Part shown: positions 7,979 through 12,904 of the stretch, piece by piece | Layout of the letters: each line of letters begins with the position of its first letter | Numbering within the stretch: position 1 is the first letter of the stretch | Origin: Maribacter caenipelagi | Lineage (GTDB): Bacteria; Bacteroidota; Bacteroidia; Flavobacteriales; Flavobacteriaceae | Direction: 5' to 3' | Assembly (NCBI RefSeq): GCF_004364175.1 | Contig: NZ_SNZW01000014.1 | Coordinates: 372,001-436,000, forward strand | Length of the DNA stretch: 64,000 bases | The notes under the pieces: generated by a model | The model's database searches: none | The model's input: the letters and a program-made list of their open reading frames with translations, nothing else | Told to the model about the DNA's origin: nothing | Position numbers and translations under genes: made by a program

Positions 7979-9379
7979 ATGTATGATTTTGGCTTAGTAG
8001 GTCTTGGAGTAATGGGACAGAATTTTATCTTAAATGTAGCTGATAACGGATTTTCTACTTACGGATATGATTTAGATGATGAAAAGGTAGAGACTTTAAA
8101 GACTTTAGGTGGAGATTTAGATAAAGTAAGTGCCTCTAGCAATATAAAAACCTTTGTTAAAAACTTAAAGCAACCACGTAAAATAATGTTATTGGTGCCT
8201 GCCGGTAAAATTGTAGACGGTGTTATAGAGTCTCTTTTGCCACATATTGACAAAGGTGATATCATTATTGACGGAGGAAACTCTTTTTTTACCGATACCG
8301 ACAGAAGAGAAGCTTATTTACAACAGAAAGGCTTTAACTTTTTTGGAGCAGGAGTTTCTGGCGGTGCAAAAGGTGCCCGTAAAGGTCCGAGTATTATGCC
8401 AGGTGGTTCAAAATCTGCTTACGAACATATTAAACCAATTTTTGAAGCAGTATCTGCAAAATATAATGGGGAACCTTGTGTTGCTTATTTAGGACCTAAA
8501 TCTGCAGGTAACTACGTAAAAATGGTGCACAATGGTATTGAATACGGATTGATGCAGCTGACTTCTGAAATTTACGATGTTCTAAAAAAAGGTGGTGACT
8601 TTGATAATGATGAATTACATAGCACTTTCGCAAAATGGAATGCCGGTAGATTGCAATCGTTCTTAGTAGAAATTACCTCTGAAATATTCGAGCAAGAAGA
8701 TGACTTAGTTAAAGGACGCTTAGTGGATCAAATTTTAGATAAGGCAAAACAAAAAGGAACCGGTAAATGGACAAGCCAAAACGCAATGGATCTAGGTATA
8801 CCTGTACCGTCAATTGATGTTGCTGTTAGCATGCGTGAAATTTCTGCTTTAAAAGATGAAAGAATAAAAGCCGATGCCTTATATGACAGACCTTCGGTAG
8901 CACATATGGATAAAGAGAAGTTAGAAACGCTTACTGAAAAAGCTTTATACTTTTCATTTATCATTACTTATTCGCAAGGGTTACACCAATTAGCAGATGC
9001 TTCTAAAGAATATGGTTATGATTTAAATATCTCTGAAATTGCTAAAATATGGCGAGCTGGCTGTATAATCCGTGCCGGTTTGTTAGCTGATATTGCTGAA
9101 GCTTTTAAAGCTGAACCTAATTTGCCTAACCTTTTACTTTCGCCAAATTTTGTTAGTAAAGTAAAAGAAACGGTTGGTGCTGCGAGAGAATTGGTTGCTT
9201 TTGGTGCACAAAACGGAATTCCGCTACCCGGGCTATCAAATTCACTTACGTATTTTGATGCGTATACTTCTAGCAAATTACCTCTAAACCTAATTCAGGC
9301 GCAACGCGACTATTTTGGTTCTCACACTTATGAACGTTTAGACCGTGAAGGTATTTTCCATACAGAATGGGAAGATTAA
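7979..9379 (+). CDS. gnd: 6-phosphogluconate dehydrogenase, decarboxylating
   Basis: Converts 6-phosphogluconate to ribulose 5-phosphate, CO2 and NADPH. 466 aa, the length of the long dimeric form of the enzyme. The N-terminal Rossmann motif is GLGVMGQNF. The substrate-binding segment 'GVSGGAKGARKGPSIMPGG' is near residue 127, and 'KSAGNYVKMVHNGIEYG' carries the catalytic Lys and conserved His-Asn. The C-terminal tail reads 'DYFGSHTYERLDREGIFH', which reaches into the partner active site in the family. Placed back to back with zwf-pgl, it completes the oxidative branch within 4 kb. Confidence 0.97.
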   Translation: MYDFGLVGLGVMGQNFILNVADNGFSTYGYDLDDEKVETLKTLGGDLDKVSASSNIKTFVKNLKQPRKIMLLVPAGKIVDGVIESLLPHIDKGDIIIDGGNSFFTDTDRREAYLQQKGFNFFGAGVSGGAKGARKGPSIMPGGSKSAYEHIKPIFEAVSAKYNGEPCVAYLGPKSAGNYVKMVHNGIEYGLMQLTSEIYDVLKKGGDFDNDELHSTFAKWNAGRLQSFLVEITSEIFEQEDDLVKGRLVDQILDKAKQKGTGKWTSQNAMDLGIPVPSIDVAVSMREISALKDERIKADALYDRPSVAHMDKEKLETLTEKALYFSFIITYSQGLHQLADASKEYGYDLNISEIAKIWRAGCIIRAGLLADIAEAFKAEPNLPNLLLSPNFVSKVKETVGAARELVAFGAQNGIPLPGLSNSLTYFDAYTSSKLPLNLIQAQRDYFGSHTYERLDREGIFHTEWED

Positions 9380-9389
9380 AAATCAACAT

Positions 9390-9929
9390 TTGAAAAAATA
9401 TAAAACTGTTTTAAATAGTATTTGCCTTTCACTGATGGTGGCAACGACAATTATTTCGTGTAAAGAAGTTTCTAAAGAAGAAGTTCCGGTTGAAGTTCTT
9501 GACAATCATACTCTTGATAGAAAGGCAAATGCTATTTTAATAGATTCTCTTGTTAGGCAGGTTTATGTTCCTATTTATTCTGACATTTATAATCAAACAA
9601 GAGATACTAGAACTTTACTTACCGCTACCTTAAGCATTAGAAATACTAGCTTGAAGGATAGCTTATTCGTAAGTAAGATCGATTACTATAATACAGAAGG
9701 CGATTTGGTTAGAAGTTATATCGACTCCCCTATTTATCTCACCCCAATGGAGTCTATTGATTACGTTATTGAACAACAAGATACTTCTGGTGGTAGTGGC
9801 GCTAATTTTTTGATTGATTGGTACTCGAAGAAACAACTGAACCCGTTGTTTCAAGCAGTGATGGTTGGCGGACTAGGAGCACAAGCGTTTTCTTTTACTA
9901 CGGAAGGAATCGAAATTACCGAAGAGTAA
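9390..9929 (+). CDS. DUF3124 family lipoprotein
   Basis: Predicted lipoprotein of unknown function. I choose a TTG start at 9390 (179 aa), ten bases after the gnd stop, because it gives a canonical signal KKYKTVLNSICLSLMVATT with lipobox IISC; a GTG at 9345 would overlap gnd and bury the signal. The mature part has the DUF3124 pattern: 'VYVPIYSDIYNQTRDTR', 'TLSIRNTSLKDSLFVSKI', 'YLTPMESIDYVIEQQDTS' and 'GGSGANFLIDWYS'. Location just after gnd suggests co-transcription but no functional link is obvious. Family assignment is from memory of the domain pattern. Confidence 0.8.
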   Translation: MKKYKTVLNSICLSLMVATTIISCKEVSKEEVPVEVLDNHTLDRKANAILIDSLVRQVYVPIYSDIYNQTRDTRTLLTATLSIRNTSLKDSLFVSKIDYYNTEGDLVRSYIDSPIYLTPMESIDYVIEQQDTSGGSGANFLIDWYSKKQLNPLFQAVMVGGLGAQAFSFTTEGIEITEE

Positions 9930-9994: not shown

Positions 9995-10333
9995 ATGTAT
10001 TCTATATACGTTATCGAATTATCTAAAAAAGTGTTTTCTGAGAATAGAAAGTTCAGAGAAGCGAATCCGCAATTTAATGGTGTGTTAGAATGTCTTTATG
10101 TTGGTATGACCAGCAAAACACCTAAAGAACGTTTTGACCAACATAAAAACGGAACCTTAAGCAAAAAAGGACATAATATATCTTCAAAAATTGTAAAGAA
10201 ATACGGTTTGTATCTACGCGGCAGTCTTTTTAATCATATTGATAAAATAAAGTCAAAAACCGAAGCTTTAAAAATGGAAGAGCAATTGGCACTTGAACTT
10301 AGACGAAAAAAATATGCTGTTTGGTTTAACTAA
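9995..10333 (+). CDS. GIY-YIG nuclease-like protein
   Basis: Small 112-aa single-domain protein. The two strands that name the family appear as SIYVIEL (residues 3-9) and CLYVGMT (33-39); the conserved Arg is R46 in 'TPKERFDQHKNG', a Glu lies in 'ALKMEEQLA' (95-96) and the protein ends in the family-like 'AVWFN'. These fit the catalytic Tyr-Arg-Glu-Asn set, although the first tripeptide is IYV instead of GIY. It could cut DNA or be a non-catalytic relative. Its stop lies five bases from the stop of the convergent Pycsar-effector-like gene. Confidence 0.65.
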   Translation: MYSIYVIELSKKVFSENRKFREANPQFNGVLECLYVGMTSKTPKERFDQHKNGTLSKKGHNISSKIVKKYGLYLRGSLFNHIDKIKSKTEALKMEEQLALELRRKKYAVWFN

Positions 10334-10338
10334 AGTTC

Positions 10339-11559
10339 TTATTTAGGCAATGGCGTTACAGCATCTAAAAGTTCATCTTCCATACCGTAATATTTCAAGG
10401 CAAAGCCGAATGCTACAACAGAGAGAATTATGCCAATAAGAAACACGGTGTAAGTCCATCTTAAAAGTCTATATTTTTCTTGTAAAACCTTTCCTAAATA
10501 ATACAGATCCATACTTAATGAATCGTAAATAGATTCTTTGCTCTTTATGATATCTCTTAATTTAGATTTAAAGTCATCCAATTCCATAGTATGAAAATTT
10601 CCGAAGAACAAAAAATTGGTATCCTTCTTCTTAATATCTTCATCTACTACATCGGTATTGCTCACTTTTGGTCGTGTAGCCAAAACGGACATAATCATCG
10701 AAGCAATACTAAAGAGAACAAATATTACGGTCGGGTATATTAAATAAGAATTTGACGGGGAATCTAACTTAGGTATCAAATTAGCAATAAGAAGCGAAAT
10801 AATAATAGCATTTACAGAAAGTAGAATATTCGCTTTAGTATCTGCAATATCACTCAGTTTAATATGGTTTCTAAGTTCTATACGATATAAGGACTGAATT
10901 GCGCGCTGCGGACTTTCATCTTTCAACTTCGCTTTTAAAACTTCTTTCTTTTCGGTTTTTTCAGCCTTTTGTAATTTAGAAATTAAATCAAGAATATTTT
11001 CTTCTTTTTGCTCTTGCCAGTTTTCTTTCGCAAAGTCTGTATAATATTTGTGCTGTAGGCGAAGTTTCTCTAGATAGCTTAATCGCCAAGTATCTAAATC
11101 GGGTATAGATGCCTTAAAATTTTCCAACTCCATTCTCAATAATTGAAGCATCTCTTCAAAATCTTTAGATGCATAAAACCAGGTGCTTACATCTTTTAAG
11201 ATTTTTTCCGAATCATTTTTAGGTTCATCATTTTGCCAGGCACTTTTAATGAGTTCAACGATTGCCTCTATTTCATTTGAAGAACAGCTATTGTCTTTTA
11301 AAAATTGGGAGACCAATCGTACACTTTCATTCAAATGGTTATCATAATCTACCGCAAAACCAGCATGAATAAACCAAACACCTATCAATACCTTATCTAC
11401 ATCAACATCTAAATTACTTGAAGCTTCTAATATTTTTTTCGACTTATCAATTGTCTTATTAGAAAAGCTCTGGCTATGAAAAAGAAAATTCTTGTTCATT
11501 TGATCTGCCATTAAATTTTTAATATATTTTTCAGCTTTTGCTGTTATAGACTTATTCAT
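10339..11559 (-). CDS. Pycsar-effector-like membrane protein with degenerate HD domain
   Basis: 406 aa in two parts. Residues about 10-150 follow the order of an HD phosphohydrolase (H28 in FLFHSQ, then IHAGF, H75 in DNHLNESV), but the defining His-Asp pair reads H65-A66 and the later Asp-Ala-Asp region reads LKDVSTW, so metal-dependent hydrolysis is unlikely. Residues about 220-390 match the Pycsar effector membrane domain (DUF5706): 'IELRNHIKLSDIADTKANIL' leads into two helices (about 244-264 and 273-294), and a third lies near 370-390. Charged coiled coil links the two parts. In Pycsar systems such proteins sense cyclic pyrimidine nucleotides made by a neighbouring cyclase and damage the membrane; no cyclase gene is present here. 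The next upstream gene on the same strand encodes the exported kinase-like protein, 67 bases away. Confidence 0.75.
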   Translation of the reverse strand: MNKSITAKAEKYIKNLMADQMNKNFLFHSQSFSNKTIDKSKKILEASSNLDVDVDKVLIGVWFIHAGFAVDYDNHLNESVRLVSQFLKDNSCSSNEIEAIVELIKSAWQNDEPKNDSEKILKDVSTWFYASKDFEEMLQLLRMELENFKASIPDLDTWRLSYLEKLRLQHKYYTDFAKENWQEQKEENILDLISKLQKAEKTEKKEVLKAKLKDESPQRAIQSLYRIELRNHIKLSDIADTKANILLSVNAIIISLLIANLIPKLDSPSNSYLIYPTVIFVLFSIASMIMSVLATRPKVSNTDVVDEDIKKKDTNFLFFGNFHTMELDDFKSKLRDIIKSKESIYDSLSMDLYYLGKVLQEKYRLLRWTYTVFLIGIILSVVAFGFALKYYGMEDELLDAVTPLPK

Positions 11560-11626: not shown

Positions 11627-12904
11627 TTATTTATTTACACAATTAAAACATGACATCTGCCCTTTAGTCATTTCAATATCTTCAGACCCTTTTAGCGTTT
11701 CGGTCAATTCTTCACTATTGGTCAACTCTTGATGAAATTGAAGTGCATATTCCTTAAGGTCATCTCGTCTATTTTTAATTTTTGCAATTAGCTCCTTTCC
11801 ATCCAACTCAAAAATTTCATCAGTCCATACGTCAAAAGATGACTCAATAGCTTTATCTGTTAGTAACAATTGTAATTGTTTAGCTTCTTGCTCAAAAACA
11901 GACCGAGGAATATCTCTCATAAAATAAACATCGAACGGAGATATTAAACCTGGTAAAAATTCAATTTCAGATTCAAAACTTTGCACTTCTGGAAGAAAAG
12001 TATTGTTAGATATCAAAGTCGGCAACACACCTTCTAGATTGAAAAATGCGTTATCTCTATCGCACGGTAAAGGAACTGCATTAATTGAATCCCCAATATT
12101 TTCAATAGCCCAGCCCCATTGTTTTGCATGCCGATCCCAATCACCTATTAACAAATCAAATAGACGCGCTCTAACCAATATATTTACATTTATGCCAACT
12201 TTGCTTGTGTTTTTAATTTTGAGCTTTTGTAGGTCATCTGTATCAATCAACGAATCAACATTCTTAAGGCCTAACCAATCAGCGTTTCCTTCTGTTTCAT
12301 ATTCTAAAAGAAATAGCCGATTCCCATATTTAACGTTATAATCTGAAAGTTTCCCTTGTTTTGGTAAGAATACCAACTTAGGAATGGTATTAAGAATTTT
12401 TACTTTTTTTGAAAGTTCAGAAACTACTAATGCCGCATAAGGATGTTGAGCAGAAATACCATCGACTACTATATTTTCTATCCCTAAAGTATGGGCAATT
12501 TTCGGTACTAATGGCGAAGGGTCTTTAGAAACACTGCGCAGCGTCATCAAAGTACCGTCATCTTTCTTTAATTTTAAGGAATGCGTTTGTTGACCACCAC
12601 CTTCTTCTAAAATATTTACATTACCATTTAAATCGTTTAAATATAATATAGGCACTTTTACAGGTGTAGACCAAGCTTTTCTATACTGCTCGCCCTGCAT
12701 TACATTTTTAATACTATTGGCTTCATATAAAGTGCTTGCGGCCACTATAACGGAGTCATACTTTTTAAAATCTATCTCATTGACATCAGAGAGCCCTATA
12801 ATCTCACAAGTATCAAATGTTTTGTCGGTACTAGACAATGACCAGTATGTAAATGATGCAAATAGCGCCACTAAAAAAACCATAATGAGTACAACTTTTT
12901 TCAA
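11627..12904 (-). CDS. exported protein with HipA/Fam20-like kinase motifs
   Basis: 425 aa, beginning with a membrane helix/signal (residues 4-23), so the body lies outside the cytoplasmic membrane. A possible glycine-rich nucleotide loop EEGGGQQTHSLKL (100-112) is followed by 'MTLRSVSKDP' with a candidate ATP-contacting Lys127. 'AQHPYAALVVSEL' and 'PKLVFLPKQG' come next. The likely catalytic core is LFDLLIGDWDRHAKQW (249-263) and, about 20 residues on, LPCDRDNAFF (279-288); this order and spacing resemble HipA and secretory Fam20 kinases (GNxDRH, then DN). The same block occurs, from memory, as a C-terminal part of large Bacteroidetes metallophosphoesterases; here it stands alone. The C-terminus has a CFNC pair. 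Kinase activity is an inference. Confidence 0.55.
   Translation of the reverse strand: MKKVVLIMVFLVALFASFTYWSLSSTDKTFDTCEIIGLSDVNEIDFKKYDSVIVAASTLYEANSIKNVMQGEQYRKAWSTPVKVPILYLNDLNGNVNILEEGGGQQTHSLKLKKDDGTLMTLRSVSKDPSPLVPKIAHTLGIENIVVDGISAQHPYAALVVSELSKKVKILNTIPKLVFLPKQGKLSDYNVKYGNRLFLLEYETEGNADWLGLKNVDSLIDTDDLQKLKIKNTSKVGINVNILVRARLFDLLIGDWDRHAKQWGWAIENIGDSINAVPLPCDRDNAFFNLEGVLPTLISNNTFLPEVQSFESEIEFLPGLISPFDVYFMRDIPRSVFEQEAKQLQLLLTDKAIESSFDVWTDEIFELDGKELIAKIKNRRDDLKEYALQFHQELTNSEELTETLKGSEDIEMTKGQMSCFNCVNK

Follow-up and report, generated by a model that had tools for sequence, protein, structure and literature searches.

A Conserved Predicted Kinase-Fold Protein of Maribacter caenipelagi and Its Recurrent HD-PycTM Neighbour in Bacteroidota

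Introduction

The window, which is the whole stretch of 64,000 nucleotides of Maribacter caenipelagi DNA analysed here, contains a gene for a protein with a predicted membrane anchor and kinase fold, the putative active-site residues of which are invariant among its relatives, and beside it a gene for a predicted inner-membrane protein of HD-PycTM type, which recurs next to the same domain family across the Bacteroidota. The reading frame, the anchor pattern, the predicted fold, the invariant residues, the domain shared with fused proteins, and the recurrent neighbour are established below. The protein is read as a periplasmic kinase-fold phosphotransferase of a trans-envelope module, whose HD-PycTM part would handle a cytosolic nucleotide, and this reading is held with slightly more confidence than doubt.

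Bacterial kinases that act outside the cytoplasm are poorly known, and their phosphate donor is an open question. The present family has a fully conserved putative active site and occurs in 113 of 296 sampled Bacteroidota genomes, and its members are frequently joined to a phosphatase-like part and a barrel of outer-membrane type; its recurrent neighbour may be a sign of an undescribed envelope module for phosphate-based signalling. No description of the kinase-fold family or of its pairing with HD-PycTM was found in the open-licence literature; the fold and each of the parts are known, and what appears new relative to that literature is the family, its place inside the presumed “Metallo” Omp85 proteins, and its linkage to HD-PycTM.

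Gene and Membrane Anchor

11627 to 12904, minus strand: stand-alone kinase-fold protein, exported (predicted), 425 aa, TTG start; supported by the AlphaFold2 model (pLDDT 92.5, pTM 0.92) and by relatives.
12839 to 12895, minus strand: predicted N-terminal membrane anchor, residues 4-22, N-in/C-out, from hydropathy and charge bias; helix 2-24 in the model.

The preliminary description, made from the letters of the window, had placed an exported protein at exactly this frame, and the gene was recovered with the same ends, on the minus strand and with the TTG start. The same start position, likewise TTG, is found in several Maribacter relatives, and the frame is real and conserved, the stand-alone gene being present in 24 of 36 genomes of the genus, the window's own included; two of these 24 rows have an internal stop, and one of the two covers only residues 129-423. 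Pfam and NCBIfam scans of the 425-aa protein gave no match, with best E-values of 0.056 and 0.033, respectively, far below the cut-offs.

The N-terminal membrane signal that had been claimed is also borne out, since residues 4-22 are strongly hydrophobic (Kyte-Doolittle 2.2) and form a single helix. The net charge of the flanks is +2 on the N-terminal side and −2 on the C-terminal side, which points to an N-in/C-out orientation, and thus the remaining chain with the catalytic domain should lie in the periplasm and the anchor in the inner membrane.

Active-Site Motifs and Their Conservation

12569 to 12601, minus strand: candidate Gly-rich nucleotide loop GGGxQxxSLKL, residues 102-112; G102-104 and S109 in 66/66 rows, Q106 in 62/66.
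12524 to 12538, minus strand: R123 (strand 119-124 of the AlphaFold2 model) and K127, candidate ATP-phosphate contacts; both 66/66.
12110 to 12142, minus strand: predicted catalytic loop D255-W-D257-R-H259-x-x-Q262-W-x-W265; named residues except W256 66/66; aligned with CotH W-D-x-Y and HipA N-x-D-D-H.
12044 to 12061, minus strand: predicted metal-binding motif D282-x-D284-x-x-F287, DFG-type; D282 and D284 66/66; aligned with CotH IPYDYDNTFG.
11639 to 11650, minus strand: C-terminal cysteine pair CFxC of the stand-alone group; in the window protein and 23/24 other stand-alone proteins.

Conservation was read from an alignment of 66 rows, which comprises the window protein and 65 of the best 80 loci of a contig scan (25 stand-alone rows and 41 others). 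Identical in all rows are G102-104, S109, R123, K127, P155, E201, R247, D250, D255, D257, R258, H259, Q262, W263, W265, D282, and D284; Q106 (62/66), D148 (65/66), and H154 (59/66) are nearly so, and position 287 is Phe in 59 rows and Tyr in the remaining ones. The motif positions given in the preliminary description proved right (GGGQQTHSLKL at 102-112, Lys at 127, DWDRH at 255-259, and DRDN at 282-285), and D257, H259, and D284, whose loss among homologues had been set beforehand as refuting the kinase reading, are invariant. Such conservation together with the predicted fold rules out a chance motif. The CFxC pair stands within the last 45 residues and, among the 24 stand-alone loci of the best 80, is missing from the Saprospiraceae protein.

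Two of the earlier assignments stood in part. Lys127, proposed as the candidate lysine, is invariant, but strand 119-124 of the model, likely beta-3, bears R123, and K127 comes just after it. Similarly, D284 of DRDN is invariant as expected of a key residue, but the metal-binding DFG-type aspartate is probably D282, because, of the two Asp residues in the shared P-x-D-x-D-x-x-F motif, 16 CotH rows keep only the first without exception. The profile alignment on which this comparison is drawn, with GDWDRH opposite GSWDDY and the PxDxDxxF motifs opposite each other, is weak (E 0.0041, probability 8%), and that with HipA is weaker (E 0.08, probability 0.7%). The P-x-D pattern is common to the window family, CotH, and HipA; the 14 HipA rows show N-x-D-x-H-x-x-N and P-A-x-D with an invariant Asn at catalytic D+5, a position occupied by Gln262 in 66/66 rows of the window family.

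The same residues bear on whether phosphate is transferred at all. A pseudokinase, in which the kinase fold is kept and a nucleotide or phospho-ligand is bound as by a sensor, would suit the atypical Gln at D+5 and the Arg on strand 119-124, as well as a periplasm not known to contain ATP; however, in 66/66 rows there is no change at either Asp equivalent, at the loop glycines, or at R123 and K127, which is unusual for pseudokinases, and this explanation is judged unlikely.

Predicted Fold

The AlphaFold2 model was computed from the 66-row alignment (pLDDT 92.5, pTM 0.92) and presents a two-lobed kinase fold, on which Foldseek and VIA-align agree at clan level (CotH/HipA/PI4K type). The best Foldseek matches were CtkA (E 2.6e-5), CotH (E 1.6e-4), and HipA (E 2.4e-4), with TM-scores of 0.22-0.38 when normalised by the query, so that the window domain is only distantly related to these proteins. 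By VIA-align the model superposed on CotH with Z 14.3 (4.3 A over 258 residues), followed by PI4K-II beta (14.2), CtkA (12.8), and HipA (11.2). Fam20-type entries appeared lower in Foldseek (4kqa at rank 20, E 9.6e-3; 5yh2, E 0.030), and Fam20C was not found among 50 VIA-align rows. A profile of the 66 relatives searched against the PDB also gave CtkA as the best match (E 7.6e-4), aligned through the DRH motif, with the next match at 0.032, whereas phmmer searches of the PDB with single proteins returned nothing at E 10 for the window protein and at E 1 for a paralogue.

Thus the HipA/Fam20-type kinase reading of the preliminary description is upheld, in the form of a predicted CotH/CtkA/HipA/PI4K-II-type fold; structure comparison with HipA and Fam20C had been proposed as its test, and a fold unrelated to kinases did not emerge. 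Membership in the known Pfam families was rejected: CotH (PF08757) did not match the window protein and reached only 1/66 members (E 0.032), and HipA (PF07804), likewise without a match to the window protein, reached 4/66 (best E 0.025), its Asn at D+5 being absent here. Matches to DUF1598 and other weak Pfam matches (best E 0.0018-0.0019 among the 66 members) were taken as noise.

The fold would also accommodate a different chemistry, such as adenylylation, phosphorylation of glycan or lipid head groups, or the use of a donor other than ATP (a nucleotide passed by PycTM or a lipid-linked pyrophosphate). SelO is a kinase fold that performs adenylylation. The PI4K-II match as good as that of CotH, the nucleotide-related partner (YpgQ-like HD and PycTM), and the atypical D+5 Gln and strand Arg speak for such chemistry; against it, the motifs are laid out as in CotH, CtkA, and HipA, which transfer phosphate, and no measurement favours another donor, so it is considered rather unlikely. 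A phosphotransferase remains the preferred reading of the domain.

Fused Relatives and Distribution

The resemblance noted in the preliminary description, between the domain and a block attached to Bacteroidetes metallophosphoesterases, was confirmed: the window's genome encodes three paralogues of 1194-1246 aa in which the domain forms the unannotated middle between a metallophosphoesterase-like N-terminus and an Omp85-type C-terminus. The PF00149 cut-off is passed by one of the three, and in the other two the phosphatase motifs are degenerate by eye. The paralogue L004 keeps a purple-acid-phosphatase-like set (GDxG, GDNxY, GNHD, GHxH), degenerate by eye in L002 and L003, and all four phosphatase search patterns were matched in 23/40 fused proteins. 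The C-terminus is Omp85-like in 3/3 paralogues, and the NCBIfam model Omp85_fam matches them with E-values of 4.5e-12 to 1.6e-17, at 46-64 bits against a model cut-off of 200; a lipoprotein-type N-terminus is seen by eye in 2/3. The 425-aa window protein consists of the middle domain only and has neither the metallophosphoesterase nor the Omp85 barrel. A metallophosphoesterase of Riemerella was set aside as a relative, since a review lists it as a T9SS effector (PMC10202324).

The domain was found in 44 of 60 genomes of relatives, and among the 113 positive genomes of the even phylum sample 6 carry a frame of ~430 aa; the matches listed among the best 80 loci of the contig scan all carry Bacteroidota names. 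Four architectures recur, namely, metallophosphoesterase-domain-barrel (~1240 aa), domain-barrel (~860-960 aa), forms of ~500-570 aa, of which several begin like lipoproteins, and the stand-alone form (~425 aa). Moreover, a split form, in which a kinase-domain gene with a lipoprotein-like start stands beside a separate metallophosphoesterase gene, was seen in 2/5 loci inspected (L156, 1551-4413, plus strand; L158, 519-3293, minus strand), the metallophosphoesterase gene following within ~15 bp of the kinase-domain gene. In the tree of 66 rows all 25 stand-alone rows, one of them from a Saprospiraceae bin, lie on one side of a branch with 100/100 support.

A distant relative of the domain (23.6% identity) is encoded on the Parabacteroides distasonis plasmid NZ_OY725747.1 (131151-132149). 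In two genomes of the sample (G128:C10 and G077:C15) a short CotH-family gene with a frame of 378-393 aa lies ~1.4-2.2 kb from a domain-barrel match.

The HD-PycTM Partner

10339 to 11559, minus strand: HD-PycTM inner-membrane partner (predicted), 406 aa, 67 bp downstream on the same strand; PF18967 E 5.1e-32.

The partner has three predicted transmembrane segments with the C-terminus out, and its degenerate HD domain would be cytosolic by charge bias. The structural model (pLDDT 83, pTM 0.54) is nearest in its N-terminal region to HD hydrolases including YpgQ, with weak E-values; against the PDB the protein had no match below E 0.001, the best being HD hydrolases (E 0.019) and YpgQ with ADP (E 0.09). 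Because of these weak PDB E-values, the HD reading of the partner rests on TM-scores of ~0.6-0.7 by target and on the Pfam HD match of one homologue (L056). Three loci encode HD and PycTM separately, in overlapping genes of ~205 aa each. No homology was seen between the kinase-like protein and the HD-PycTM partner.

An alignment of the window's partner with 24 of the other HD-PycTM proteins found divides them by their neighbours. The HD site (H, HD, D) is preserved in 18/18 aligned partners of fused proteins and in 1/7 neighbours of stand-alone proteins, being lost in 6/6 aligned neighbours of flavobacterial stand-alone genes (the window's own, L034, L035, L038, L047, and L055) and intact in L056. 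This decay indicates that loss of catalysis is tolerated in such gene pairs; in the same branch the kinase site is kept, and with the phosphotransferase still taken as the preferred reading the partner there would be a sensor or scaffold.

Other genes adjoin the pair. A small GIY-YIG protein of 112 aa (9995-10333, plus strand; PF01541 E 1.2e-5) lies beside it, as in the Maribacter loci L034-L036, and a DUF3124 protein (PF11322 E 1.5e-45) is encoded at 9345-9929, plus strand, with an uncertain GTG start; the latter frame overlaps the end of a frame which by eye resembles 6-phosphogluconate dehydrogenase. No HipB-like neighbour was recognised by eye.

Genomic Linkage of the Domain Family and HD-PycTM

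The linkage was tested in two samples. In 60 genomes of relatives 106 of 110 domain rows were used (4 fragment rows were left out), together with 123 of 129 PycTM rows (6 weak or fragment rows were left out), the “long” class including one frame of 229 aa and one of 301 aa. A family member lay within 5 kb of 77/87 long PycTM genes as against 2/36 short ones, and long PycTM occurred in 44/44 domain-bearing genomes and in none of the rest. HD-PycTM was near 62/82 fused genes and 15/24 stand-alone genes, the other 9/24 not being beside one.

The second sample comprised 296 Bacteroidota genomes with 142 domain rows and 134 PycTM rows. Within 6 kb of the domain were 61/78 long PycTM genes, 13/25 short high-scoring ones, and 0/31 short low-scoring ones. 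Both genes were present in 93 genomes, the domain only in 20, PycTM only (at least 80 bits) in 6, and neither in 177, a co-occurrence with a Fisher p of 9e-49 when kinship between genomes is ignored. Adjacency was observed in 72 genomes from 18 families and 39 genera, against ~0.4% per gene expected under random placement; these 72 genomes carry 74 adjacent PycTM genes, three of them in one genome (G000). The gene pair is found in varying orientations (upstream divergent, downstream on the same strand, and others), and this speaks against a single frozen operon having simply been inherited.

Most of the linkage comes from the fused forms, and beyond the Maribacter clade the stand-alone form is less tightly linked. 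Among the 24 stand-alone loci of the best 80, HD-PycTM was in the flanks of 7 (three Maribacter, Arenibacter, Pareuzebyella, Winogradskyella, and the Saprospiraceae bin), and none was found within the flanks of 17, one of these loci being truncated; of the six ~430-aa matches in the phylum sample, the one in the window is alone in having PycTM within 6 kb. For the domain-barrel form without metallophosphoesterase (~860 aa) no HD-PycTM was found in 10 loci with short flanks, and in the phylum sample 13 matches of the domain-barrel class have one within 6 kb. The protein had been called stand-alone at the outset, and this holds for the polypeptide but not for the gene, as HD-PycTM recurs as a neighbour of the family and lies 67 bp downstream here.

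A role in anti-phage defence, as a Pycsar- or CBASS-like abortive pair with HD-PycTM as the membrane effector, has to be weighed here, as the partner matches PF18967 and the PADLOC model PycTM (E 5.7e-20) and the kinase-like protein weakly matches PDC-M03A (E 1.9e-4). PycTM is described as disrupting the membrane by forming a pore (PMC11224242). Nevertheless, the pairing recurs phylum-wide, mostly with Omp85-type proteins, the kinase-like protein matches no phage record and 5 plasmid records, and no cyclase or CD-NTase gene was recognised by eye among the frames adjoining the pair in the window and in the relatives' loci, so that defence appears very improbable. In the Bacteroidota sampled, long HD-PycTM proteins mostly adjoin the kinase-fold family, and the Pycsar-effector name given by PF18967 and PADLOC may mislead; many model-named Pycsar effectors of this phylum may be unrelated to phage defence.

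Proposed Mechanism

If the protein is, as preferred here, a kinase-fold phosphotransferase of the periplasm that belongs to a trans-envelope module, the following course is proposed. The single N-terminal helix would hold the protein in the inner membrane with its CotH/CtkA/HipA-type kinase domain in the periplasm, where ATP or another nucleotide with Mg or Mn might be bound through the GGGxQxxS loop, R123/K127, and D282/D284. D257 would serve as the catalytic base, and phosphate would pass to an envelope substrate, which may be a protein, glycan, or lipid. HD-PycTM is envisaged to act together with the kinase-fold protein by direct contact, its cytosolic YpgQ-like HD domain hydrolysing or sensing a nucleotide and its PycTM segments passing either that state or the nucleotide to the other side of the inner membrane. 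For the fused proteins, the reverse reaction at the Omp85 barrel could fall to the purple-acid-phosphatase-like part. The partner in the flavobacterial stand-alone branch would have the sensor or scaffold role described above, and the direction of signalling between the two proteins is likewise putative.

No ATP pool is known to be established in the periplasm, and the difficulty of ATP outside the membrane, which the preliminary description had raised, stands; the HD-PycTM partner offers a place to start the search. That an inner-membrane neighbour of one nucleotide-hydrolase-like kind occurs in 18 families provides a testable candidate source for a nucleotide signal.

A wider scheme may be sketched as speculation and is, taken as a whole, unlikely. 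It supposes an undescribed trans-envelope phosphorylation system of Bacteroidota, in which a periplasmic kinase-fold domain and a phosphatase, usually in one Omp85-type protein, are served by an inner-membrane HD-PycTM protein with a PycTM pore by which nucleotide is supplied or gated. In that case the window gene would represent a branch whose kinase has become detached from the barrel and sits at the inner membrane beside a partner devoid of the HD site.

Comparison with Known Systems

CotH (PF08757; Bacillus cereus, PDB 5jd9) is a kinase acting on spore-coat material and the best structural match (Z 14.3), with aligned W-D and P-x-D-x-D-x-x-F motifs; the window family differs in R123 on the strand, in the predicted envelope anchor, and in a domain common to Omp85-type and metallophosphoesterase fusions. 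CtkA of Helicobacter pylori (PDB 3akj/3akk) is the best match by Foldseek and by PDB profile and shares DRH-x-x-x-W, but it has Asn at D+5 and only ~12-14% identity to the window family. HipA (PF07804), the cytosolic toxin of HipBA pairs, has a kinase fold (Z 11.2) with the same order of Gly loop, Lys/Arg, D-x-H, and PxxD, while Asn stands at D+5 where the window family has Gln. Fam20-type kinases are secreted eukaryotic Golgi kinases with a D-R-H loop; their structural match (PDB 4kqa, a Golgi casein kinase entry which we take to be a Fam20 protein, and 5yh2) is weaker than those of CotH, CtkA, and HipA.

The Pycsar effector PycTM (PF18967) shares with the partner the PycTM segment (E 5.1e-32); unlike it, the partner has an HD domain and a genomic link to a kinase-fold family, with no cyclase recognised nearby by eye. 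The “Metallo” subfamily of Omp85 proteins has a PF00149 part before the Omp85 barrel (Heinz and Lithgow 2014, PMC4104836) and is described there without a kinase domain, the word “kinase” occurring 0 times in the main text and PF00149 being called a metalloprotease domain. The window protein differs from this subfamily in having neither metallophosphoesterase nor barrel. We infer that the “Metallo” proteins are the fused relatives of the window domain, which gives them a likely function-bearing middle.
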